Assembly (NCBI RefSeq): GCF_003336425.1
Contig: NZ_QEIO01000017.1
Location: 1-64,000 of the forward strand
Length of the DNA stretch: 64,000 nucleotides
Direction of reading: 5' to 3'
Origin: Marinitenerispora sediminis
GTDB lineage: Bacteria > Actinomycetota > Actinomycetes > Streptosporangiales > Streptosporangiaceae
Position numbers and translations under genes: made by a program. The stretch's first letter is position 1. Each line of letters starts with the position of its first letter. Below the pieces are notes generated by a model that had not been told where the DNA came from, ran no database searches, and worked only from the letters and a program-made list of their open reading frames with translations. Below, piece after piece: positions 2,653 to 53,431 of this stretch.

Positions 2653-3483
2653 GTGCAGGCAGAGTTGAGTCGAATCGACTCTCGGAACGTGTTGCGACTG
2701 CGATTCCGGGAGATCCTACCGGACAGATCCGAAGAGGACGCGGCCCGTCTGGCGCTGCGTTCGCGCGGGGACCAGCCGAAGACCGTCCACGTGCCGGGGC
2801 TGCGGCGGGAGGGTGACCAGATCCGCGCCGATCTGGCGACGATCCCGTTGCCGGACGGCACCTGGGACGTCATGTGGGTGTCCCGGGACGGCCGGTCCGA
2901 GCCCGTGGCGACCCGCGATCCGGGGTTCAGCCTGGCGGAGCGCGCCGCCTACCTCGCCGAACCGCGCGACCGCGAGCTGCGGGTGATCCGCGGTCCGGAG
3001 GGGCGGCTGCGGCTGCGCAGCGCGCCCGCCCGCCCCTACGCCGAGGTCGAGTGGGTGGACGTCACCGACTCCCACGTCGCGATCTCGGGAGTGCTCGCCT
3101 ACGTGCCGCGCACCCCCGGCCGCCAGGAGGCGCGGCTGGTCGCCCGGCAGCGCGAGCTGTCCGGCGTGCTCACCGTCGACGCCGAGGTGGCCGACGGCGC
3201 CTTCAGCGTGCGCGTGCCGCTGGCCGACATGGCCGCCGCCCACGAGTCCGCCCGGGCCCACAACGAGTGGGACCTGTGGCTGACCACCCCCGCGGACGGC
3301 CGCGAGCTGCGACTGGCCTCGCTCGCCGACGACATCGTCGGCAAGAAGAAGCGCATCAGCTTCCCCTCGACCGTCCTCGCCGGTGCGGCCGGCAGGGTGC
3401 GGATCCGGCCGTACTACACGGTGCACGACCACCTCTCGCTGCTCGCCACGGAGGCCGGTGCGAAAGCGGGGGCCGGCCGGTGA
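2653..3483 (+). CDS. Uncharacterised beta-rich protein paired with a GT4 glycosyltransferase (cassette 1)
   Basis: 276 residues, no signal peptide or membrane segment. The sequence is rich in short alternating strands and many Arg/Asp pairs. It has a close paralogue at 5929-6762: both share RPYAEV.., an H/RAHNEWDLWL block, and LxALCDDIVGKK followed by a final Y(F/Y)T..D.LSLL. The conserved HNEWDLWL and DDIVGKK blocks look like functional signatures. Its TGA overlaps the GTG of the following GT4 gene, so the pair is an operon. Proteins of this type occur next to glycosyltransferases in actinomycetes with wall glycopolymers, and a role in glycan decoration is plausible. No enzymatic motif was recognised. 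The start is GTG 2653, preceded by a short-spaced GGGGGGA. Confidence 0.6.
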   Translation: MQAELSRIDSRNVLRLRFREILPDRSEEDAARLALRSRGDQPKTVHVPGLRREGDQIRADLATIPLPDGTWDVMWVSRDGRSEPVATRDPGFSLAERAAYLAEPRDRELRVIRGPEGRLRLRSAPARPYAEVEWVDVTDSHVAISGVLAYVPRTPGRQEARLVARQRELSGVLTVDAEVADGAFSVRVPLADMAAAHESARAHNEWDLWLTTPADGRELRLASLADDIVGKKKRISFPSTVLAGAAGRVRIRPYYTVHDHLSLLATEAGAKAGAGR

Positions 3484-4670
3484 AGATCGCCCTGATCATC
3501 GCCAACGCCTATGGCATGGGCGGCACGATCCGGACCGTTTTCAATCTGGCCGGCGGGCTGGTGGCCCGGCACGAGGTCGAGGTCGTCAGCCTGATCCAGC
3601 ACCGGGAGCGGCCGTTCTTCACGGTGCCCGACGGCGTGGCCCTGCGCGCCCTCGCCCCCTCGCGGGAGTGGGCCGCGCGTCCCAAGCAGGGAATGATGGC
3701 CCGCTGGCGGGAGTCGCGCCCGTGCCGGGGCGTGCCCACCTCGGAGGCCGCGCGCAACGGCGCCTTCAACGGGCGGACCGAGTACGAGCTGCGCCGCTAC
3801 CTGCGCGAGACCGACGCCGACGTCGTGGTGGGCACCCGGCCCGGCATCAACATGCTCATCGCGCAGTGGGCGCCGGAGCGGCTGACCACCATCGGCCAGG
3901 AGCACGTGCACCTCGGCAACCACAAGCCCGACGTGCGGGCCGCCGTGCGCCGGCTCTACCCCCGGCTGGACGGCCTGACCGTGCTCACCGAGGCCGACCG
4001 CACCGCCTACCAGGAGTTCCTGCCGGTCGCGGACGACTGGCTGTGCACGATGCCGAACGCGCTGCCGCCCGGCGACTACCCCCGTTCCACCCAGGAGAAC
4101 CCGATCATCGCGGCGGCCGGCCGGCTCTCGCCGATCAAGCAGTATCCCAAGCTGCTGGAGGCGTTCGCGGTGGTCGCCCGCGAGCACCCGGAGTGGCGGC
4201 TGCGCATCTACGGGGGCGGTGGAAACGAGACCGAGCTGAAGGAGCACATCACCCGGCTCGGGCTGCACAACCAGGCGACCATCATGGGCCGGACCAAGGA
4301 CCTCACCGGTGAGCTCGCCAAGGCGTCGATCCTCGCGGTGAGCTCGCGCACCGAGGGCTTCGGTATGACGATCATCGAGGCGTTCTCGGTGGGGGTGCCC
4401 GTGGTGAGCTTCGACTGCCCGCACGGCCCGCGCGAGATCATCACCTCGGGCCGGGACGGCCTGCTGGTGCCGGACCAGGACGTCGAGGCGCTGGCCGCCG
4501 GCCTGCTGCGGCTGGTCCGCGACGGCGACGAGCGCCGCCGCATGGGCGCCGAGGCGGTGCGCTCGGCGCGCCGCTACGACCTCGCGCCGGTCATCGAGCG
4601 CTGGGAGGAGTTCCTGAACGGGCGCCTGGCGGCCCGCTCGCGCGGTCGGCTCGCCGACCGGGCCGCCTGA
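3480..4670 (+). CDS. GT4-family glycosyltransferase, TagE/poly(glycerol-phosphate) glucosyltransferase-like (cassette 1)
   Basis: 396 residues of GT-B fold. The N-terminal Rossmann half opens with LIIANAYGMGGTIRTVFNLA, where the glycine loop of GT4 enzymes binds the acceptor. The C-terminal half has AAGRLSPIKQYPKLLEAF, the SSRTEGFGMTIIEAFSVGVP E-x7-E motif for the nucleotide sugar, and FDCPHGPREII. The FDCP.GP.EII version of that motif is seen in enzymes that glycosylate poly(glycerol-phosphate)-type wall polymers, so a wall teichoic acid acceptor is a reasonable inference. Cytoplasmic; no membrane segment. The GTG start overlaps the upstream TGA. It has a close paralogue at 6764-7918. Confidence 0.8.
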   Translation: MKIALIIANAYGMGGTIRTVFNLAGGLVARHEVEVVSLIQHRERPFFTVPDGVALRALAPSREWAARPKQGMMARWRESRPCRGVPTSEAARNGAFNGRTEYELRRYLRETDADVVVGTRPGINMLIAQWAPERLTTIGQEHVHLGNHKPDVRAAVRRLYPRLDGLTVLTEADRTAYQEFLPVADDWLCTMPNALPPGDYPRSTQENPIIAAAGRLSPIKQYPKLLEAFAVVAREHPEWRLRIYGGGGNETELKEHITRLGLHNQATIMGRTKDLTGELAKASILAVSSRTEGFGMTIIEAFSVGVPVVSFDCPHGPREIITSGRDGLLVPDQDVEALAAGLLRLVRDGDERRRMGAEAVRSARRYDLAPVIERWEEFLNGRLAARSRGRLADRAA

Positions 4671-4851
4671 TCCCGGCGGCACCGCAGTCGCCCGGCCCGG
4701 CGCGCGCGGCCCGCGGGCCGGGACGTGTGCGGCGCCGCCCGTTCCCTCCGGTCGCTGGGTGCCGGCCCACCCGCCACGCGAGGCCGCTCCGGTTGACCGC
4801 CCCCAAGGCCGAGGTCGGCCGGGGCCGGATCCGCGGAGGGACGGCACGCGC

Positions 4852-5769
4852 GTGGTGCGGGCGAGGGCGTTCGGCGGGGCGGAGGTCCTGGAGACGGCCA
4901 AGGTCCCGGACCCGGCGGCCGGGCCCGGTGAGGTCGTGATCGGGGAGGCCTTCAGCGACACCCTCTTCGTGGAGACGCAGATCCGCGCGGGGGTGCCCGG
5001 CTTCCCGGTCGGGAAGCCGTACGCCCGCCGGTGGCGGGATCGCCGGCACGGTGCTCGCCGTGGGGGACGGGGTGACGCCGTCCTCGATCGGCGCGCGGGT
5101 CGTGACCACCCTCGGCTGGAGCGGCGGGTACGCCGAACTGGCGGTGGCCGCGGCCGCCGGGGTGGTCCACGACGCCGGCACCGCCGTCGCCCTCACGGAC
5201 GCGGTGGCCCCCGGGCGGGGGAGACGGTACCGGTGCTGGGCGCCACCGGCGGCATGGGCGTGCTCCTCGTCCGGCTGGCGCGCTCCGCCGGCGCCCGCGT
5301 CCTGGCGGGCGCGCGCGGCGAACGCGAGCTGCGGACCGCGGCCGAGCTCGGCGCCGAACCCGTGGACGTCTCTCCCCCCCCCGGACCGGCCCCGACGGGT
5401 GGCCGGGGCCACCGGCGGCGCCGGAGCCGACGCGGTCCTCGACGGGGTCGGCGGCGCCCACGGCTCCGCGGCCGTGTGAGTGACCGCCGAGGGCGGCCGC
5501 TTCTCCGCGCCCGGTGCGCCCGCCGGAGGCTTCCCCGGCGTTGACCGGGAGGAGGCGCGCGGCGGCGCAGCATCGACCTGCTCGGCATCACCGACGCGCG
5601 GTTCGACCAGCCGACGCGGAAGCGGTGGACGGGCCTCGGGCTGGCCGCGGCGGCGGCCGGCCGGATCCGCCCGGTCATCGGCCAGACCTTCCCGCTGGCA
5701 CGCGCGGTCGACGCGCACGCCGCCATCGAGGCCCGCACCGTCCTGGGCGAGACGCTGCTGGAGGTCTGA
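4852..5769 (+). pseudogene. Decayed zinc-type/quinone oxidoreductase (MDR family) gene
   Basis: Pieces of one MDR-family NADPH oxidoreductase lie in order but in different frames. From GTG 4852 frame 1 reads VVRARAFGGAEVLETAKVPD to about 5035; frame 2 continues LAVGDGVTPSSIGARVVTT to about 5215; frame 1 gives the nucleotide-binding loop VPVLGATGGMGVLLVRLA; after a run of nine C (5374-5382) frame 2 gives GATGGAGADAVLDGVGG and meets a TGA at 5477-5479; the tail IDLLGITDARFDQPTRKR to GETLLEV is in frame 1 again, ending at 5769. At least four frame changes plus an in-frame stop make a functional product very unlikely. It sits between the two glycosyltransferase cassettes. Sequencing error could explain the C-run shift but hardly all of them. 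Confidence 0.85.
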
Positions 5770-5928
5770 CCTTCCCCGCGCCGCACCCGGTCGGGCCCGT
5801 CGGCCGCTCCGCGGTCTTGGCGGTCTCTTGACCGGGCGCGGTGGCGTGCCTGACCTGCGGATCACCCCCCGCGACCTAGGCTGACCCTCTATCGGATGCG
5901 ACCGTCTCACGCCGGTTTCGGGGGGTCC

Positions 5929-6762
5929 ATGCGCGTCCAGATGAGCCGGGTCCGGGTCGACGACATCCTCGAACTGGACCTGGCCGAACCCGCCCGCACG
6001 GGGGCCCAGGTGGTGCTGCGGCCCGTCGGCGGCCGGACCGCGCCGCTCCGCGGGCGGCGGATGCGGACCTGGGTCGGCGGGCGCCGGGCTTATGTGGACC
6101 TGCGGTGGGAGCCCCTGACCGAGGGCACCTGGGCGGTGCGCTGGTCCGAACCCGGCCGGTCCTCCCGCCAGATGTGGACCGACGACCCCTGCTACGACCT
6201 CGCCGCCCGCCGGGAGTACGCTGCGCGGCCCTCCCGCCGGGAGGTCGCCGCGCTGCGCGCCCCGGACGGCCGGCTGCTGGTGCGGGTGCGCCGGGTGCGG
6301 CCCTACGCCGAGGTGCGGGAGGTGGAGGTGCGCGACGCGACGGTGCGGATCACCGGGTTCCTCGCGCACACCGCGCCGCCCGACACGAGCACGGCCGCGG
6401 AACTGCTGGTCCGCCAGCGCGACCGGGCCACCGCGTTCGCCTTCCCGGCCGGGCTGGCGCAGGAGGTGTTCCGCTGCGCCGTGCCGCTGCCGCCGCTGGC
6501 CCGCGCGCACGCCCACGACCGGCCGCACAACGAGTGGGACCTCTGGCTGCGGGTGCCCGGCCGCGAGCGCGGGTACCGGCTTCGCGCGCTGTGCGACGAC
6601 ATCGTCGGCAAGAAGGGCCGCGTCGCGTTCCCGACGACCGCGGTGCGGACGGACTCCGGCGCGGTCGACCTGCGCCCCTACTTCACCGCTGCGGACGGCC
6701 TGTCGCTGCTCGGCACCGGAGCCGGGCCGCGCCCTCCGTCCGGTGGCGGCGCGGAGGACTGA
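5929..6762 (+). CDS. Uncharacterised beta-rich protein paired with a GT4 glycosyltransferase (cassette 2)
   Basis: 277 residues, paralogue of the protein at 2653-3483 with the same blocks: TWAVRWSEPGR, RPYAEVREVEV, PHNEWDLWL, ALCDDIVGKKGR and DLRPYFTAADGLSLLG. An upstream ATG at 5896 is in frame, but ATG 5929 gives almost the same length as the paralogue (277 versus 276) and has the same GGGGGxCC context just before it. The gene ends one base before the GTG of its GT4 partner, so the cassette architecture is preserved. It is noticeably diverged from copy 1, which points to an old duplication or separate acquisition. Function unknown. Confidence 0.6.
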   Translation: MRVQMSRVRVDDILELDLAEPARTGAQVVLRPVGGRTAPLRGRRMRTWVGGRRAYVDLRWEPLTEGTWAVRWSEPGRSSRQMWTDDPCYDLAARREYAARPSRREVAALRAPDGRLLVRVRRVRPYAEVREVEVRDATVRITGFLAHTAPPDTSTAAELLVRQRDRATAFAFPAGLAQEVFRCAVPLPPLARAHAHDRPHNEWDLWLRVPGRERGYRLRALCDDIVGKKGRVAFPTTAVRTDSGAVDLRPYFTAADGLSLLGTGAGPRPPSGGGAED

Positions 6763-6763
6763 C

Positions 6764-7918
6764 GTGCGCATCACCTTCCTCATCGGCGACGTCCACGGAA
6801 TGGGCGGCACCATCCGCAGCACCGTCAGCCTCGCGGGCGGCCTCGCCCAGCGGCACCGGGTGCAGATCGTCAGCCTGGCCCGCGGCGCCGCCCGCCCGTT
6901 CTTCCCGGTGGACCCCCGGGTGCGGCTGCGCTCGCTCACCGACAGCCGCGCCTGGGCGGGCCGGCCGGAGCCCAGTCGGCGGATCCGGGAGCTGGAGCTG
7001 CGCCCCGCCACGCTGGTCCCGCCCACCGAGGCGCGCCGGAGCGCGGTGTTCAACGCGGCCACCGAGGAGGCGCTGTGCGCGTTCCTCGCCCGCGCCCGCA
7101 CCGACGTGGTCGTCGCCACCCGGCCGGGGCTGAACTCGCTGCTCGCGCTGCTCGGCTCCGACCACTACCTGCGTATCGGGCAGGAGCACCTCAACCTGCG
7201 GCAGCAGACCGAGGACATCCGCGACCACATCCGGCGGCACCACGCGCGGCTGGACGGCCTGACCGTACTCACCGACGCCGACCGCCGCGACTACGCCGCC
7301 CTGCTCGACCGGCCGGAGGGCTGGGCGATCACCATGCCCAACCCGCTGCCGGACGCCCGCTATCCCCGCTCCCGGCTGGTCAACCCGGTGATCGCGACGG
7401 CCGGGCGGCTGATCCCGGTCAAGCAGTACCCCGTGCTGGTCCAGGCGTTCGCGCGGGTCGCCGCCGCCCATCCGGAGTGGCAGCTGCGCGTCTACGGCCA
7501 CGGACCGCAGCGCGGCCGGATCCGCGCGATGGCCGACGAACTCGGCCTGCACGGCCGGGTGGTGCTCATGGGGCGCACGCGCGACGTCACCGGCGAGTTC
7601 GCCAAGGCGTCCCTGGTCGCCCTCAGCTCCCGCCAGGAGGGCTTCGGGATGACCATCGTCGAGGCGTTCGCGGTGGGGGTCCCGGTGGTGAGCTTCGACT
7701 GCCCGCACGGGCCGCGCGAGCTGATCGAGCCGGGGCGGGACGGGCTGCTGGTACCCGACCAGGACGTGGACGCGCTCGGTGCCGGGCTGCTGCGGCTCGT
7801 CGAGGACGCGGCGGAGCGCCAGCGGATGGGCGCCGCCGCGCGGGAGAAGGCCCGGCGGTTCCGCGTCGACCACGTCGTGCGCCGCTGGGAGGAGTACCTC
7901 GTCGAGCGCCTGGGCTGA
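6764..7918 (+). CDS. GT4-family glycosyltransferase, TagE-like (cassette 2)
   Basis: 384 residues, close paralogue of the enzyme at 3480-4670. Shared landmarks: FLIGDVHGMGGTIRSTVSLA at the N-terminus, IGQEHLNLRQQT, LDGLTVLTDADR, ATAGRLIPVKQYPVLVQAF, SSRQEGFGMTIVEAFAVGVP and SFDCPHGPRELIEPGRDGLL. The E-x7-E nucleotide-sugar motif is intact. The two enzymes keep the catalytic half nearly unchanged and differ mainly in the N-terminal acceptor half (residues 40-90), which suggests different acceptors or linkage positions. Start GTG 6764, one base after the partner's stop. A GCTCCGCGGAGC palindrome at 7921-7932 follows the stop. Confidence 0.8.
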   Translation: MRITFLIGDVHGMGGTIRSTVSLAGGLAQRHRVQIVSLARGAARPFFPVDPRVRLRSLTDSRAWAGRPEPSRRIRELELRPATLVPPTEARRSAVFNAATEEALCAFLARARTDVVVATRPGLNSLLALLGSDHYLRIGQEHLNLRQQTEDIRDHIRRHHARLDGLTVLTDADRRDYAALLDRPEGWAITMPNPLPDARYPRSRLVNPVIATAGRLIPVKQYPVLVQAFARVAAAHPEWQLRVYGHGPQRGRIRAMADELGLHGRVVLMGRTRDVTGEFAKASLVALSSRQEGFGMTIVEAFAVGVPVVSFDCPHGPRELIEPGRDGLLVPDQDVDALGAGLLRLVEDAAERQRMGAAAREKARRFRVDHVVRRWEEYLVERLG

Positions 7919-8011
7919 CCGCTCCGCGGAGCTGCCGCGGCCCGCGCTGCCCGGGGGCGCGGCGCCACGAAGGGCGGCGCGCGGACGGGGTGCCCGCGTA
8001 TCGTGCCCGTC

Positions 8012-10663
8012 ATGAGTAGTGCGGGAAACGGGAAGCCGGAACAGACCCCGACCGCGTCCGCCATGCGGCGCGCCCTGGCACGGGCGCGGGACGGCAAGGC
8101 GCTCGACGCGACCGAGGCGGAGGTGCTGCTGCACGCGAGGGGATCCGACCTCGACACGCTCCTGGAGTACGCCGGGCGGGTGCGCGACGCCGGCCTGGAG
8201 GCGGCCGGCCTGCCCGGCGTCATCACCTACAGCCGCAGCGTCTTCATCCCGCTGACCCGGCTGTGCCGGGACCGCTGCCACTACTGCACCTTCGCGACCG
8301 TCCCCGGCGACCTCCCCGCGCCCTTCCTGTCGCCGGACGAGGTACTGGAGATCGCCCGCCGGGGCGCCGCCATGGGCTGCAAGGAGGCGCTGATCACCCT
8401 GGGCGACCGTCCCGAGGACCGCTGGTCGGCGGCCCGGCGGTGGCTGGACGAGCAGGGCTACGACGACACGCTCTCCTACGTGCGTGCCGTGGCGGTCATG
8501 GTGCTGGAGGAGACCGGGCTGCTGCCGCACCTCAATCCCGGCGCCATGAGCTGGTCGGACCTGCAGCGGCTGAAGCCGGTGGCGCCGTCCATGGGCATGA
8601 TGCTGGAGACCACCTCCGAGCGGCTGTTCACCGAGCGGGGCGGGGCGCACTTCGGCAGCCCCGACAAGGACCCGGCGGTGCGGCTGCGGGTCCTGGAGGA
8701 CGCCGGCCGCTGCGGCGTGCCCTTCACCAGCGGCATCCTCATCGGGATCGGCGAGACCGTCGCCGACCGCGCCGAGTCGGTCTTCGCGCTGCGCCGGATC
8801 GCCCGCGAGTACGGGGGCCTCCAGGAGGTCATCGTGCAGAACTTCCGCGCCAAGCCCGGCACCGCGATGATGCACCGCCCCGACGCCGACCTGACGGAGC
8901 TGGCCGCCACCATCGCGGTGACCCGGCTCGTGATGGGCCCGCGCGCCCGGGTGCAGGCCCCGCCCAACCTGATCGGGGACGAGTACGCGCTGATGCTGCG
9001 CGCCGGGGTCGACGACTGGGGCGGCGTCTCGCCGGTGACCCGCGACCACGTCAACCCCGAGCGGCCCTGGCCGCAGATCGAGGAGCTGGCCGCTCACACC
9101 GCGCGGGCCGGCTTCGAGCTGCGGGAGCGGCTGTGCGTCTATCCCGAGTACGTCCGCCAGGGCGAGCCGTGGCTGGACCCGCGGCTCCTCGGGCACGTGG
9201 CCGCGCTCGCCGACCCCGCCACCGGCCTGGCCCGCCCCGACGCGGTCGCGACCGGACGGCCCTGGCAGGAGCCGGAGGCGGGCGCGTCCGCCTCCGGGCG
9301 GACCGACCTGCACGTCGCGGTGGACACCGAGGGGCGGACCGGCGACCGGCGCGGCGACTACGACGCCGTCTACGGCGACTGGGACCGGCTGCGCGAGCGC
9401 GCCGCCCGGTCCGCTCCCGGCACCGGGGCGCCGCGCCGCTTCGACCCGGACGTCCGGGCCGCCCTGCGGCACGCCGAGAGCGACCCCGCCGGCCTGAGCG
9501 ACGAGCAGGCGCTCGCCCTGCTGCACGCCGACGGCCCCGAGCTGGCGGAGCTCGCGGCCCTCGCCGACGGCGTGCGCCGCGACGCGGTGGGCGACGACGT
9601 CACCTTCGTGGTGACCCGCAACATCAACTTCACCAACGTCTGCTACACCGGCTGCCGGTTCTGCGCCTTCGCCCAGCGGCGCACCGACGCCGACGCCTAC
9701 ACGCTCTCGCTGGACCAGGTCGCCGACCGGGCCGCCGAGGCGTGGCAGGCCGGAGCCACCGAGGTGTGCATGCAGGGCGGCATCCACCCCGACCTGCCGG
9801 GAACGGCCTACTTCGACATCGCGCGGGCGGTCCGGGAGCGGGTGCCCGGCATCCACGTGCACGCCTTCAGCCCCATGGAGGTGGTGAACGGCGCGGCGCG
9901 GACCGACCTGCCGGTCCGCGAATGGCTCGTCCGCGCCCGGGAGGCCGGGCTCGGCTCCCTGCCCGGGACCGCCGCGGAGATCCTGGACGACGACGTGCGC
10001 TGGGTGCTGACCAAGGGCAAACTGCCCACCCGGGCGTGGATCGACGTGATCAGCACGGCGCACGACCTCGGCATCCCCACGACGTCGACCATGATGTACG
10101 GGCACGTGGACACCCCGGAGCACTGGGTGGCGCACATCAAGCTGATCCGGTCGCTCCAGCGGCGCGCCATGGAGCACAACGGCCGGCCCGGGTTCACCGA
10201 GTTCGTGCCGCTGCCGTTCGTGCACACCAACGCCCCGATCTACCTGGCCGGGCTGGCGCGGACCGGCCCGACGGTGCGGGAGAACCGCGCGGTGCACGCG
10301 CTGGCGCGGCTGCTGCTGCACGGCTACGTCGACAACATCCAGTGCTCCTGGGTGAAGCTCACCGACGAGACCTGCCGGCAGCTCCTCACCGGCGGGGTGA
10401 ACGACGTGGGCGGCACCCTCATGGAGGAGACCATCAGCCGGATGGCGGGGTCGAGCAACGGGTCGTACCGGACGATCAGCGACATCGAGGCCATGGTGCG
10501 CCCGACCGGGCGCCCGCTGCGGCAGCGCACCACGCTCTACGGCGAGGTTCCGGCCGAGCGCCGCGCGGCCGCCGCGGCCAGCGACGGTGTGGCCGAGAGC
10601 ATCCGCCGGGCGCGGCGGTCGCTGCCGCTGGTCCAGGACAGCGCGGGCGGGTGCCGCTCGTAG
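8012..10663 (+). CDS. fbiC: 7,8-didemethyl-8-hydroxy-5-deazariboflavin (FO) synthase, CofG-CofH fusion
   Basis: 883 residues with two radical-SAM domains. The first has C85-x3-C89-x2-C92 (CRDRCHYC), the CofG half; the second has C544-x3-C548-x2-C551 (CYTGCRFC), the CofH half. Together they join a tyrosine-derived radical to the ribityl-diaminouracil and close the ring to form FO, the chromophore of coenzyme F420. Fused FbiC is the actinobacterial form; archaea use two proteins. The N-terminal 60 residues and the linker around residues 430-500 (charged, Asp/Arg-rich) are outside the catalytic cores. ATG 8012 is preferred, GTG 8003 is possible. The later F420 genes fbiA and fbiB lie 4-7 kb downstream on the other strand. 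Confidence 0.95.
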
Positions 10664-13281: not shown

Positions 13282-14559
13282 CTAGCGCACCTCGATGAAC
13301 GCCTCCGGGTCCCGGGGCGGCCGGTCGCGCGGCGGCGCCGCCGGATGCCCCACCGCCACGGCGCCCATGGGCCGCCACCCGGCGGGCAGCGCCAGCACGT
13401 CCCGGACCGTGTCGGGGCAGAACAAGGTCGAGGAGACCCAGGCCGACCCCAACCCCTCGACGGCCAGGCCGACGAGCAGGTTCTGCACGCCGGCGCCCAT
13501 GGCCACCAAGAACATCGCCTGCTCGGCGGCGGCGCGCCGCTCGTCGGGATAGGGGTGGGCGCCCTCGGCGACCAGGCACGGAACGACGAGGTAGGGGGCG
13601 CGGCGCAGCACGTCGCCGCGGCGGGTCCGCCGGGCGATCGCGTCCTCGGCGAGACCGTCGGCCCGCAGGTCGGCCACCCAGGCGTCCAGCATGGCGTCGA
13701 GCAGCCGCTTGCGGGTCTCGGCGGACTCGACCAGCACGAACCGCCACGGCGTGGTGTGGTGCGGGGCAGGCGCGGTCAGCGCAGCGGCGACGGCCCGGCG
13801 CACCGCCTCGGGGTCGACGGGTTCGGCGGTGAACTCCCGGATCGTCCGGCGGGCGGCCGGCACGTCGCGGGACCCGTAGCGGAACAGGTCGGCGTCGGCC
13901 GGACGCACCAGCGCCGCCGCACCCGGGCCGTCGTCCTCGGTCACCAGGTGCGCCAGGCCGCGCAGCACCGCCACCGGCACCCCGGTGAGCTTGCCCTTGA
14001 CCAGCTCGCCCGCGGCGGCGATCTCGTCGGCCACCGCGTTCATCGTGACGTCGAGCACGTTGCCGTGGGTGTCGACGCGGCCGCGCAGGTCCTCCAGCGG
14101 GTGGAGTCCGGCCGCGCCGATGGCGATGTCGGTCTGCCCGACCCGCCATGGCCGGCCGAACGTGTCGGAGACCACGACGGCGACCCGCACGCCCAGCCGC
14201 TCCCGCAGGCCGGCGCGCAGCCGGCGGGCCGAGGCGTCGGGGTCCTCGGGCAGCAGCAGGACGTGTCCGGGCGGGACGTTGGAGGCGTCCACCCCGGCGG
14301 CGGCCATGACCAGGCCGTGGCGGGTCTGCACGATGCGGGTGTCGCCGCGCCGGGCCACCACGCGCACCGTCTCGGCGTCGACCGCCGCCGAGCGCTCCAT
14401 CCGGCGCAGCCGCCCCTCGGCCTTGCTGACCACCTTGGAGGTGACGACCAGGATGTCCCCGTCGCGCGGCGGCGCGGCCGCGGCGATGAGGGCGGCGAGG
14501 TCGTCGCCGGGGCCGATCTCGGGCAGGCCGGTCACTCCGTGCACGCTCAGCTCGGTCAT
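13282..14559 (-). CDS. fbiB: Coenzyme F420:L-glutamate ligase / FMN-dependent reductase fusion
   Basis: 425 residues. Residues 1-245 are the CofE-type ligase ([53 protein letters not shown]) that adds glutamates to F420-0. Residues 250-425 are the nitroreductase-like FMN domain ([38 protein letters not shown]) that in mycobacterial FbiB reduces dehydro-F420-0. The two-domain length is the usual one for FbiB. ATG 14559 overlaps the stop of fbiA (ATGA), so the two are translationally coupled. Confidence 0.95.
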
Positions 14560-15524
14560 GCGCGCCCCTCCTTCAACTCGACCGCGAGGTCCAGTGCCGC
14601 ACGGGCGATCGCGGCGGTCGCCTCGGGGTCGGACATGTAGAGCGGGCGGGACCGCACGGCGACCCCCGCCACCTCGGTCCCGGCATCGGCGTCGTCCACG
14701 AGCCAGCCGTCCAGCAGGTCCGCGCCGTAGTGCTCGGCCACCGCCTGCGCGGTGGTGGCCACGCCGATCGCGGTCAGGCAGGCGTCGGCCATGCCCCGGA
14801 CGGGAGCGCCCCCGATGATGGGGGAGACGCCGACGACGGTCTTGGCGGCCACCGCGTCGCGGATGCCGGGTACGCCGAGGATGGAACCGACGCTGACCAC
14901 CGGGTTGGAGGGCGGCAGCAGCACGACGTCGGCCGCCTCGATCGCCTCCAGCACGCCGGGAGCGGGCTTGGCGTCGGCCGCGCCGACGCTGACGATCTCC
15001 TCGGCCGGGATCGCGGCGCGGTGCCGCACCCACCACTCCTGGAAGTGGATGGCCCGGCGCCCCTCGCCGTCGGCGACCACGACGTGGGTCTCGACCCGGT
15101 CGTCGGTCATGGGCAGCAGCCGGACGCCCGGGCGCCACCGGTCGCACAGCGCCTCGGTGACCGCCGACAGCGGGTAGCCGGCCGCCATCATCTGCGCGCG
15201 CACGATGTGCGTCGCGACGTCGCGGTCGCCCAGGCCGAACCACTGCGGCCGCATTCCGTAGGCGGCGAGCTCCTCCCGGACGGTGAACGTCTCCTCGGCC
15301 CGGCCCCACCCCTGCTCCTCGTTGATCCCGCCGCCCAGCGTGTACATGACCGTGTCGAGGTCGGGGCAGATGCGCAGACCGAACAGGGTGATGTCGTCAC
15401 CCGTGTTGCCGATGACCGTTATGATCCCGCTGCCCGGGTTGTTCGTCTCCTCGGCCAGGGTCGACCGGAGGCCGCGCAGGAAGCGCGCCCCTCCGATGCC
15501 GCCTGCCAGCACGACTATCCGCAT
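14556..15524 (-). CDS. fbiA: 2-phospho-L-lactate (phosphoenolpyruvate) transferase of F420 synthesis
   Basis: 322 residues. The N-terminus [19 protein letters not shown] is the diagnostic glycine loop of CofD/Fbi[21 protein letters not shown] and [19 protein letters not shown] follow, both family hallmarks. The enzyme transfers the phosphoenolpyruvyl (or phospholactyl) group from a GDP-activated donor to FO, giving dehydro-F420-0 or F420-0. ATG 15524 reproduces the FbiA N-terminus; GTG 15530 two codons earlier is possible. No Shine-Dalgarno site precedes it, so a leaderless mRNA is likely. First gene of fbiA-fbiB. Confidence 0.95.
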
Positions 15525-15863
15525 GGGCACAAGTCTGGCAGGGTGGTGCGGTGTATGTGCCGTGCCCCCATGGGCCGGGGCCGTGCCCCCGCGGTCGCGC
15601 GCGGGAGACGGCGGGCCCGTGCCGCGATCCCCTTCCGGAGCCGCGGAGCCGGCGGCGCCGCGGGGCGCGCGGCGGAGACTCCGTACCGCCGTGCCGCGAG
15701 CGGCCGGTCACCGTTCTGCCGGCCCCGGCGGGACCGACGCTGCCGGGCCGGGCCGAACGGACTGATCGTCCTCTTCTGCGTCTCCCGCCTGATTCACTGA
15801 CAACCTGACGATATGCAAAGCTTCCACCGACGCGACAGCGAAGCAGCGGAGGGGAATCCTCTC
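15525..15863. other. Divergent intergenic region between fbiA and the Gln/Tyr-rich membrane protein
   Basis: GC-rich with no supported frame. AT content rises near 15785-15825 (around TTCACTGACAACCTGACGAT), the likely promoter of the rightward gene. A GGAGGGG ribosome-binding site at 15848-15854 lies nine bases before TTG 15864. Confidence 0.4.
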
Positions 15864-52080: not shown

Positions 52081-52393
52081 ACATGGCACCCGTCCGGGTC
52101 CGTGGTTGCGTCGGGCACGACGCCGTCCGCAGGGCGGCGTCCGTTCGGCAAGCCGATGCCAGCCGCAGGCGAAACGGCCCACGTAAGGCGACTTTTCGTC
52201 GACCGATCACGGTGCGGCTTAGAGGTAAGTCCTGCCTCGCCGGAGGTCCCGATGTCCTCCGGAACCGGGAGAAGGGCAGTAGTGGCGCTCAAGCGCCGCG
52301 AACTCCTCAGCAGGCGGATGTGGGGACGAAGACCAGGTCGGCCGGACGGGTGACATGCCTCTCTTCACATGCCCGGGGCAGCGGCCCCGGGCA
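52081..52393 (+). ncRNA. Structured leader RNA upstream of hpf, probable raiA-type RNA
   Basis: GGCA-CCCGTCCGG (52085-52097) can pair with CCGGACGGG (52342-52350) and TGCC (52356-52359), closing a domain of about 275 bases. Inside are GACGCCG/CGGCGTC, CCGGAGG/CCTCCGG and GGCGC/GCGCC stems. A perfect ten-bp hairpin (52370-52393) ends it. It has its own promoter, lies upstream of the hpf/raiA gene, and contains no credible protein. The raiA RNA motif is a known large structured RNA in this position in Firmicutes and Actinobacteria; assigning this RNA to it is inference from place, size and architecture. Confidence 0.6.
52370..52393 (+). terminator. Hairpin ending the leader RNA
   Basis: TGCCCGGGGC (52370-52379) and GCCCCGGGCA (52384-52393) form a perfect ten-bp stem with an AGCG loop, followed by TTCCCC. 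It lies about 350 bases before the hpf start, so it may end a separate RNA or attenuate hpf. Confidence 0.6.
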
Positions 52394-52741
52394 TTCCCCG
52401 AGCCGCGCGCGGCGCGCCCGGTCCAGGGCCGGTGAGCAGATCGGCGGCCGGACCGGCCGGCCGCCGAGCGCCGGGTCCGCGCTGAGAAACGCGGGCCGCG
52501 TGATCAAAGCCGTACGTGAGTACCGGAGTCCCGTGGGTATACCTACGGCTCCCAGGCAGTGGCCGCCGAACCCTCCGGGCACCGAAGGCGTTCGGACACA
52601 CCCTGGCACTGGCTGTCGCCATCGGTGACGGCGGAGAGGAGGACGGCCACCTACGCCCTCCGCACGGGCCGCGAGGGCAACGTCACAACACGGAGCCGGC
52701 GTGCCGCCGCAGCGCGGCAGCCAGGCGACGAAGGGGGTCAA
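52394..52741. other. Spacer between leader RNA and hpf
   Basis: No gene supported. CCGTGGGTATACCTACGG (52531-52548) is an imperfect palindrome containing GGGTAT, the -10 of SigB-type stress sigma factors, but no correctly spaced -35 was found. AAGGGGG at 52729-52735 is the ribosome-binding site of hpf. Confidence 0.35.
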
Positions 52742-53431
52742 GTGGACATCATCGTCAAGGGTCGACGCACCGCAGTCAGCGAGAAGTTCCGACAGCACGT
52801 CGCGACCAAGCTGACCAAGCTCGCGAAATGGGAGCACAAGGGCATGAGCGTCGATGTGGAGGTGTCCAAGGAACGCAACCCGAAACTCGCCGACCAGCGC
52901 GAGCGGGTTGAACTCACGATCCACTCCAGCGGCCCCGTGATCCGGGGCGAGGCGTCCGCCGACGACCGCTACACCGCACTGGACCTCGCCATGACCCGGG
53001 TCGAGGCCCGGCTGCGCAAGCTCGCGGACCGCCGCAAGGTGCACAAAGGCAGCAACCGCGCCCCCGTCTCGGTCGCGGCCGCGACCGCCGAACTGGCCGG
53101 CGCGGCCCCGCAGCCGGTCCCCACCGCGGTGCCGACCGAGCCCGCGCCCGAACCCGCGCGCGCACCGGCGCCCGCTCCGCGCCGGCCGGCCCGGGCCGCC
53201 GACGCCGCGCCGGACGAGGAGTTGATCGAGCTCGACACCCAGGGCGAGGTCCCGGTAATCGTCCGCGAGAAATTCCACTACGCCAAACCCATGACCATTG
53301 ACCAGGCGCTGATGGAAATGGAACTCGTCGGGCACGATTTCTACCTGTTCCGGGACGAGGAGCGCGACGCCCCCAGCGTCGTCTACCGCCGCAAGGGCTT
53401 CAACTACGGGGTTCTGCGCCTGATGGAATAA
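52742..53431 (+). CDS. hpf: Ribosome hibernation promoting factor, long form
   Basis: 229 residues. Residues 1-105 are the ribosome-binding domain (MDIIVKGRRTAVSEKF-like start, KLTKLAKWEHKGMSVDVEV, DDRYTALDLAMTRVEARLRK). A Pro/Ala linker (about 118-158) leads to the dimerization domain (PVIVREKFHYAKPMTIDQAL, VGHDFYLFRDEER, VVYRRKGFNYGVLRL). Long-form HPF dimerizes 70S ribosomes into inactive 100S particles in stationary phase or hypoxia. GTG 52742 with AAGGGGG upstream gives the natural N-terminus. Confidence 0.95.
   Translation: MDIIVKGRRTAVSEKFRQHVATKLTKLAKWEHKGMSVDVEVSKERNPKLADQRERVELTIHSSGPVIRGEASADDRYTALDLAMTRVEARLRKLADRRKVHKGSNRAPVSVAAATAELAGAAPQPVPTAVPTEPAPEPARAPAPAPRRPARAADAAPDEELIELDTQGEVPVIVREKFHYAKPMTIDQALMEMELVGHDFYLFRDEERDAPSVVYRRKGFNYGVLRLME

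Follow-up and report, generated by a model that had tools for sequence, protein, structure and literature searches.

Non-catalytic beta domains are built into several enzymes that make or decorate wall teichoic acids, and their role is unsettled. In TarS of Staphylococcus aureus, a glycosyltransferase family 2 (GT2) enzyme that acts as wall teichoic acid beta-N-acetylglucosamine (beta-GlcNAc) transferase, module C1 (residues 353–495) forms a trimerization domain together with C2, with basic grooves that have been proposed to bind polyribitol phosphate; removal of this domain lowers processivity, not catalysis, as the truncated enzyme is still active, with its intrinsic processivity reduced from 2400 to 133 (PMC5156392). 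Other teichoic acid enzymes relevant here are the TagF-type polyol-phosphate polymerases TarL and TarK with their N-terminal domain, the Listeria wall teichoic acid rhamnosyltransferase RmlT, and the glycosyltransferase family 4 (GT4) wall teichoic acid alpha-glycosyltransferases TarM and TagE, in which a trimerization domain is inserted in the N-terminal half (residues 69–201 of TarM(Se); PMC10672168). The present analysis concerns two gene cassettes in a 64,000-nucleotide stretch of contig NZ_QEIO01000017.1 of Marinitenerispora sediminis (hereafter, the window). In each cassette, a gene for a beta-rich protein, termed here the partner (P1 and P2), precedes a GT4 gene (G1 and G2). On balance, each cassette probably encodes a two-subunit teichoic acid alpha-glycosyltransferase with a separate acceptor-docking or oligomerizing module.

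A first-pass annotation, made from the sequence letters alone, had described two operons of the same layout, an unknown protein followed by a GT4, and this layout was recovered (P1/G1 at 2653–4670, P2/G2 at 5929–7918), the unannotated partner having about 276 residues; the two-cassette observation is more than chance. The stop codon of P1 and the start codon of G1 share the bases GTGA (a 4-base overlap), and G2 starts one base past the P2 stop. The partners are 39% identical over 279 columns, and the GT4 proteins are 55% identical over 383 columns. The sequence blocks HNEWDLWL and DDIVGKK, pointed out in the same annotation, were found in both P1 and P2 and are largely conserved among near relatives. 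The catalytic halves of G1 and G2 had been called nearly the same, which overstates a difference of the right direction: identity is 64% in residues 201–383 (117/184 aligned) and 47% in residues 1–200 (94/200). By inspection, no signal peptide or membrane segment was apparent in P1. In the genome of the host, six places match G1 at E ≤ 1e-10, with 889 and 446 bits for the cassette GT4s and 53 bits for the next, and P1 as the query matches P1 and P2 only.

Partner fold and GT4 subunit

No Pfam or NCBIfam match was obtained for P1 and P2, and the comparison of 31 diverse partner members with the same databases gave scattered weak matches only, from which no family could be assigned. Two of these, TarS_C1 in one of the 31 members (E 0.17) and NF045517 in one member (E 6.7e-4), were left as chance. 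Among Pfam domains, no GT2, TarS_linker, Glyphos_transf or other glycosyltransferase family match was present in the partner. No literature on such a partner was found, the search being limited since the protein has no name to search by.

The structural model of P1 (15 sequences; predicted local distance difference test (pLDDT) score, 85.8; predicted template modelling (pTM) score, 0.81) is almost all beta and consists of two tandem beta modules with similar strand order. Profile comparison of the partner halves gave a match over 52 columns (E 8.5e-5; probability, 60), and so, taken together with the strand order, the modules likely arose by tandem duplication. One sequence (L037), with its N-terminus out of frame or masked, was excluded from the fold alignments.

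Module 2 (residues 127–273) best matches residues 352–495 of TarS (Z 12.8; 135 aligned residues; 3.2 Å; about 18% identity in the structural alignment), and thus corresponds to the TarS C1 module at the level of fold, not of sequence. The next hits are the N-terminal domains of TarK and TarL (Z 11.5 and 11.3, respectively) and RmlT (Z 10.9), while the first unrelated row has Z 7.2. Foldseek analysis of the P1 model placed TarS first (E 1e-5), and TarS, TarL/TarK and RmlT account for all of the top 12 rows obtained with the whole model and all of the top eight obtained with module 1. When module 1 was modelled alone (pLDDT, 85.0; pTM, 0.81), the first hits were TarL (Z 8.8), RmlT (8.7) and the TarL N-terminal domain (8.0), with the best unrelated hit at 7.0; across TarL/TarK the values for this module are 7.4–8.8. 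The first three Foldseek rows for module 1 are TarL and TarK, none at E ≤ 0.001, and the predicted fold of this module is, on its own, a weak assignment. In RmlT, both partner modules match within the C-terminal region of about residues 343–532.

A relative of the partner is also detectable by sequence in actinomycete TagF frames, before the catalytic domain. HHalign comparison of partner module 2 with the pre-catalytic segment of 16 such frames gave a probability of 94 (E 1.4e-7; 73 columns), and a partner-only profile detected 7 of 17 frames in the region before Glyphos_transf, most of the detected frames having been fetched through matching the partner profile. TagF of the host shows the module with a wider profile that already held four TagF rows (E 3.6e-9), and gave no match to the partner-only profile. 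These results support the view that the beta-rich partner represents a module of teichoic acid enzymes that exists here as a protein of its own. The difference lies in the gene arrangement: the modules of TarS, which are likewise tandem and non-catalytic, are fused to GT2 and TarS_linker in one chain, TagF and TarL carry Glyphos_transf, and RmlT is a single chain, whereas the partner is encoded by a separate gene paired with GT4 and is without Glyphos_transf.

G1 and G2 (384–396 residues) have the features of the retaining GT4 family of CAZy, namely, a Glycos_transf_1 match above the cut-off and the E-x7-E motif, which reads EGFGMTI[IV]E at residues 292–300 in both proteins (EGFGMTIIE in G1). 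The nearest solved chains to G1 are 7ec7 (a group 1 glycosyltransferase, which we take to be staphylococcal SdgB), TarM(Se), WlaC (presumably PglH), TarM and Gtf1, and the SdgA and SdgB models are among its best NCBIfam matches (SdgA, 1.1e-28). The catalytic half, the E-x7-E motif and the presumed polyol-phosphate acceptor are shared with TarM and TagE. Residues 158–377 of G1 align to residues 271–489 of TarM(Se), and upstream G1 is about 113 residues short; therefore, the GT4 seems, from this alignment, to be without the inserted trimerization domain of TarM. DUF1975 is not among the Pfam matches of G1 and G2. The partner could supply another accessory domain in trans, which, compared with TarM and TagE, is of another fold and is encoded by another gene.

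Occurrence and inheritance of the pair

The nearest named relatives of the window belong to Nocardiopsaceae. With P1 as the query, the partner was found in 16 of 41 genomes, and a 20-row profile detected it, within the order, in at least 243 of the 297 genomes sampled, or 46 of 62 genera, and in 27 of 197 genomes of the class sample; in the phylum sample, a wider profile detected it in 6 of 198 genomes. The count for the order is a lower bound, because a GT4–partner fusion (L174) was missed by the fast first scan and found later. GT4 lies directly downstream of the partner in all 14 named relatives, and the exact 4-base overlap was observed in all 29 loci of the first set from the order (L043–L071).

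For a census, the fetched loci were pooled and non-identical partner matches at E ≤ 1e-4 were counted. A 36-residue edge fragment (L046) was dropped, as it is taken to be the beginning of a partner that had been included through L019, an adjoining locus of the same genome; this left 97 distinct matches out of 98. Ninety-one of the 97 adjoin GT4 or are fused to it: in 74 the partner precedes GT4 (68 with the 4-base overlap, three with a 1-base overlap and three with gaps of 1–3 bases), in eight it follows GT4, and nine are fusions, which occur in both orders (eight GT4–partner and one partner–GT4). The other six matches lie within TagF-like teichoic acid polymerase frames, and none of the 97 in the fetched loci has neither GT4 nor TagF. 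Most census loci are the top matches of their search, and so these counts may under-represent weakly similar partner-like proteins that have no GT4. Partner homologues occurring mostly without GT4 genes had been named in advance as the outcome that would speak against an obligate pairing, and the census gave no such outcome. The companion claim, that the partner always sits directly before GT4, holds for the window and fails in one more distant genus, presumably Streptomyces, to which the reversed order is confined.

Two apparent fusions (G185 and G051; open frames of 694 and 698 residues) were rejected, as partner and GT4 are in different frames, and L026 was regarded as a chance match (E 0.003) to a frame that by eye resembles a sugar kinase, with no GT4 match in the locus. 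In four loci (L017, L022, L023 and L027), the match spans the second module only. In three of them (L017, L022 and L027) such a partner is still located directly before GT4, from which it appears that a single module may suffice.

The partner and GT4 distance matrices of 49 partner-first pairs are strongly correlated (r 0.949; none of 999 permutations as high). In the partner tree, the P2-type partners of three genomes that also have a P1-type cassette group in a single clade (support, 0.944), as do the corresponding GT4s in the GT4 tree (support, 1.0). Thus, on the trees, the two cassettes are most simply explained as an old duplication of the whole pair as a unit.

Adjacency and overlap alone are no proof of contact, and the partner might instead be no subunit at all but an independent protein, such as a chaperone, a regulator or a minor enzyme, that is kept beside GT4 by operon structure alone. 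This is a very improbable explanation, as the order reversal and the fusions in both directions are hard to account for by inherited operon structure, the module is also built into TagF chains, and no catalytic family was recognised in the partner by Pfam or NCBIfam. The fusions are the strongest hint that partner and GT4 may be in contact.

Teichoic acid linkage and proposed function

The wall-polymer function guessed in the first-pass annotation received independent support from the TarS/TarL/TarK/RmlT fold, from TagF or TarS-like genes near some cassettes, and from GT4 genes behind TagF. In a survey of neighbours in 55 loci of at least 10 kb, the window included, TagF was present in the same fetched stretch in seven loci, being located directly before partner and GT4 in L165, and GT2 with TarS_linker was present in two. 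Among 20 GT4 places (E ≤ 1e-30) in 20 genomes in which no partner had been found, one was the missed fusion L174, and ten were directly behind the TagF C-terminus, which points to teichoic acid too. Teichoic acids have been reported for Nocardiopsis (PMC6801904). As a separate observation, four of the partner-less GT4 relatives (L170, L171, L175 and L180) lie behind a frame resembling, on visual inspection, a lipoprotein L,D-transpeptidase.

Several results weigh against a teichoic acid acceptor or against a docking subunit. No teichoic acid cluster is found around the window cassettes, the stretches fetched from the 14 Nocardiopsaceae relatives contain no TagF near the cassette, and TagF of the host genome is on another contig than the cassettes. 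For L134, a locus from another part of the order, the neighbouring genes encode an Fe-S/CCG protein and a metal-sensing repressor. Sequence searches (Pfam TarS_C1; PDB by profile) did not reach TarS_C1 or TarL chains, and P1 is not basic, with net charges of +3 and 0 for its two modules (+11 and +2 in P2). The remaining 9 of the 20 GT4 places have neither partner nor TagF adjoining, so that the term obligate, used in the first-pass annotation, is justified from the side of the partner and not from that of GT4. The matrix correlation partly reflects shared species history. Proteins are the acceptors of SdgB and GtfA, two GT4 enzymes that are just as closely related. Finally, one paper reports no effect of TarM trimerization on activity or processivity (PMC10672168), and an accessory domain therefore need not be a processivity factor.

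The closeness of G1 to SdgA and SdgB models, as well as to SdgB-like and Gtf1 structures in PDB, raises the question of a protein O-glycosylation pair, in which GT4, like SdgA/SdgB or GtfA, would glycosylate surface proteins rich in repeats and the partner would recognise the protein acceptor. GtfA of the accessory Sec system indeed works with a dedicated non-catalytic partner, GtfB, as GT4 appears to do in the cassettes. GtfB, however, is glycosyltransferase-like, whereas the partner described here is almost all beta, matches teichoic acid enzymes and shows no glycosyltransferase match that would mark it as a GT-B-like pseudo-enzyme; the TagF adjacency of relatives would also be unexpected, and a protein acceptor is accordingly considered improbable. 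Assembly of a glycolipid or lipoglycan in Nocardiopsaceae, with the pair acting on a lipid-linked glycan made by the adjoining GT2, GT4, LPG_synthase_TM and methyltransferase genes, is suggested by the presence of these genes upstream of the cassette in L029 and by a cluster of LPG_synthase_TM-like neighbours, which is represented in 9 of 15 Nocardiopsaceae-type loci, the window included. Nevertheless, this gene set was not seen in the farther loci L134 and L128, where the neighbours were identified in part and the pair is kept, and the partner fold points to polyol-phosphate polymer enzymes; thus, we regard this explanation, too, as having little likelihood.

In the favoured two-subunit teichoic acid glycosyltransferase, the GT4 subunit would be the catalyst, a retaining cytoplasmic enzyme that transfers an alpha-linked sugar onto teichoic acid, a wall polymer of the polyol-phosphate type; the alpha linkage is inferred because the GT4 family is retaining. 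The partner would be the accessory beta module present at the C-terminus of TarS, at the N-terminus of TarL/TarK and in RmlT, in a duplicated form detached from the enzyme chain. It would most likely bind GT4 in the cytoplasm and dock the growing polyol-phosphate chain and/or oligomerize the catalyst, which would raise avidity and processivity and perhaps set the acceptor choice, while GT4 would add alpha-linked sugars along the polymer chain. The 4-base overlaps would couple translation, the subunits then being made one to one, and each cassette would be retained as a matched pair, probably because the two serve different sugars, linkages or polymers.

A broader and rather doubtful proposal, taken as a whole, is that the beta module serves as an adaptor common to, and exchangeable among, enzymes of polyol-phosphate polymers, gathering the polymerase and the decorating enzymes on one chain. 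It would be built into TagF and TarS-like enzymes and, in actinomycetes, would also exist as a free subunit for GT4; where the free partner is missing, a GT4 behind TagF might be served by the TagF modules instead, and matched pairs would decide which chain gets which sugar. Since the domain occurs here as a separate gene, the catalyst can be left untouched when the domain is removed, exchanged between the two paralogous pairs or supplied in trans. If the two-subunit explanation is true, a function would be assigned to a hypothetical protein as widespread as the counts for the order indicate. Wall teichoic acid sugars are also described as targets of toxins between Streptomyces (PMC13274773).

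Features of the window and its neighbourhood

The coordinates of the cassettes are listed in Table 1. The start of P2 was set at 5929, because 5896 falls upstream of the N-terminus of the partner family. A dead oxidoreductase gene had been proposed between the cassettes, which is plausible but thinly supported, as 38 residues match ADH_zinc_N with an E-value of 0.0015, below the cut-off; the frames of this remnant are broken, and the other frames scanned in the spacer gave no match.

Table 1. Coordinates of the paired genes and of the spacer in the window.
Feature	Position	Strand	Remarks
P1, partner	2653..3483	+	276 aa, open reading frame; two tandem beta modules, residues 1–126 and 127–273
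G1, retaining GT4 glycosyltransferase	3480..4670	+	GTG start; Pfam Glycos_transf_1, E 1.5e-36
Spacer with putative broken oxidoreductase remnant (weak)	4846..5768	+	38-residue ADH_zinc_N match; outer limits by eye
P2, P1 paralogue	5929..6762	+	277 aa; ATG at 5929
G2, G1 paralogue	6764..7918	+	Pfam Glycos_transf_1, E 1e-34

The neighbours of the window cassettes include genes for an LPG_synthase_TM protein and a methyltransferase, as well as F420 genes; neighbour gene calls are crude (codon-position GC content), with start sites assigned by similarity. The F420-type genes adjoin the cassettes at 8003–10663 and 14556–15530 (two Radical_SAM domains and CofH_C; CofD), and relatives of the first cluster (8003–10663) occur in 10 of 15 Nocardiopsaceae-type loci. 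In L029 (2509–4539) and L144 (5423–7504), a protein of 676–693 residues with no Pfam match precedes the GT2 gene upstream of the cassette. Farther along the window, a raiA RNA (RF03072) was identified on the plus strand at 52089–52350 with a score of 147.9 bits, above the gathering score. It is located upstream of an S30AE/HPF-type ribosome hibernation gene (52559–53431), which is an ordinary, known arrangement.

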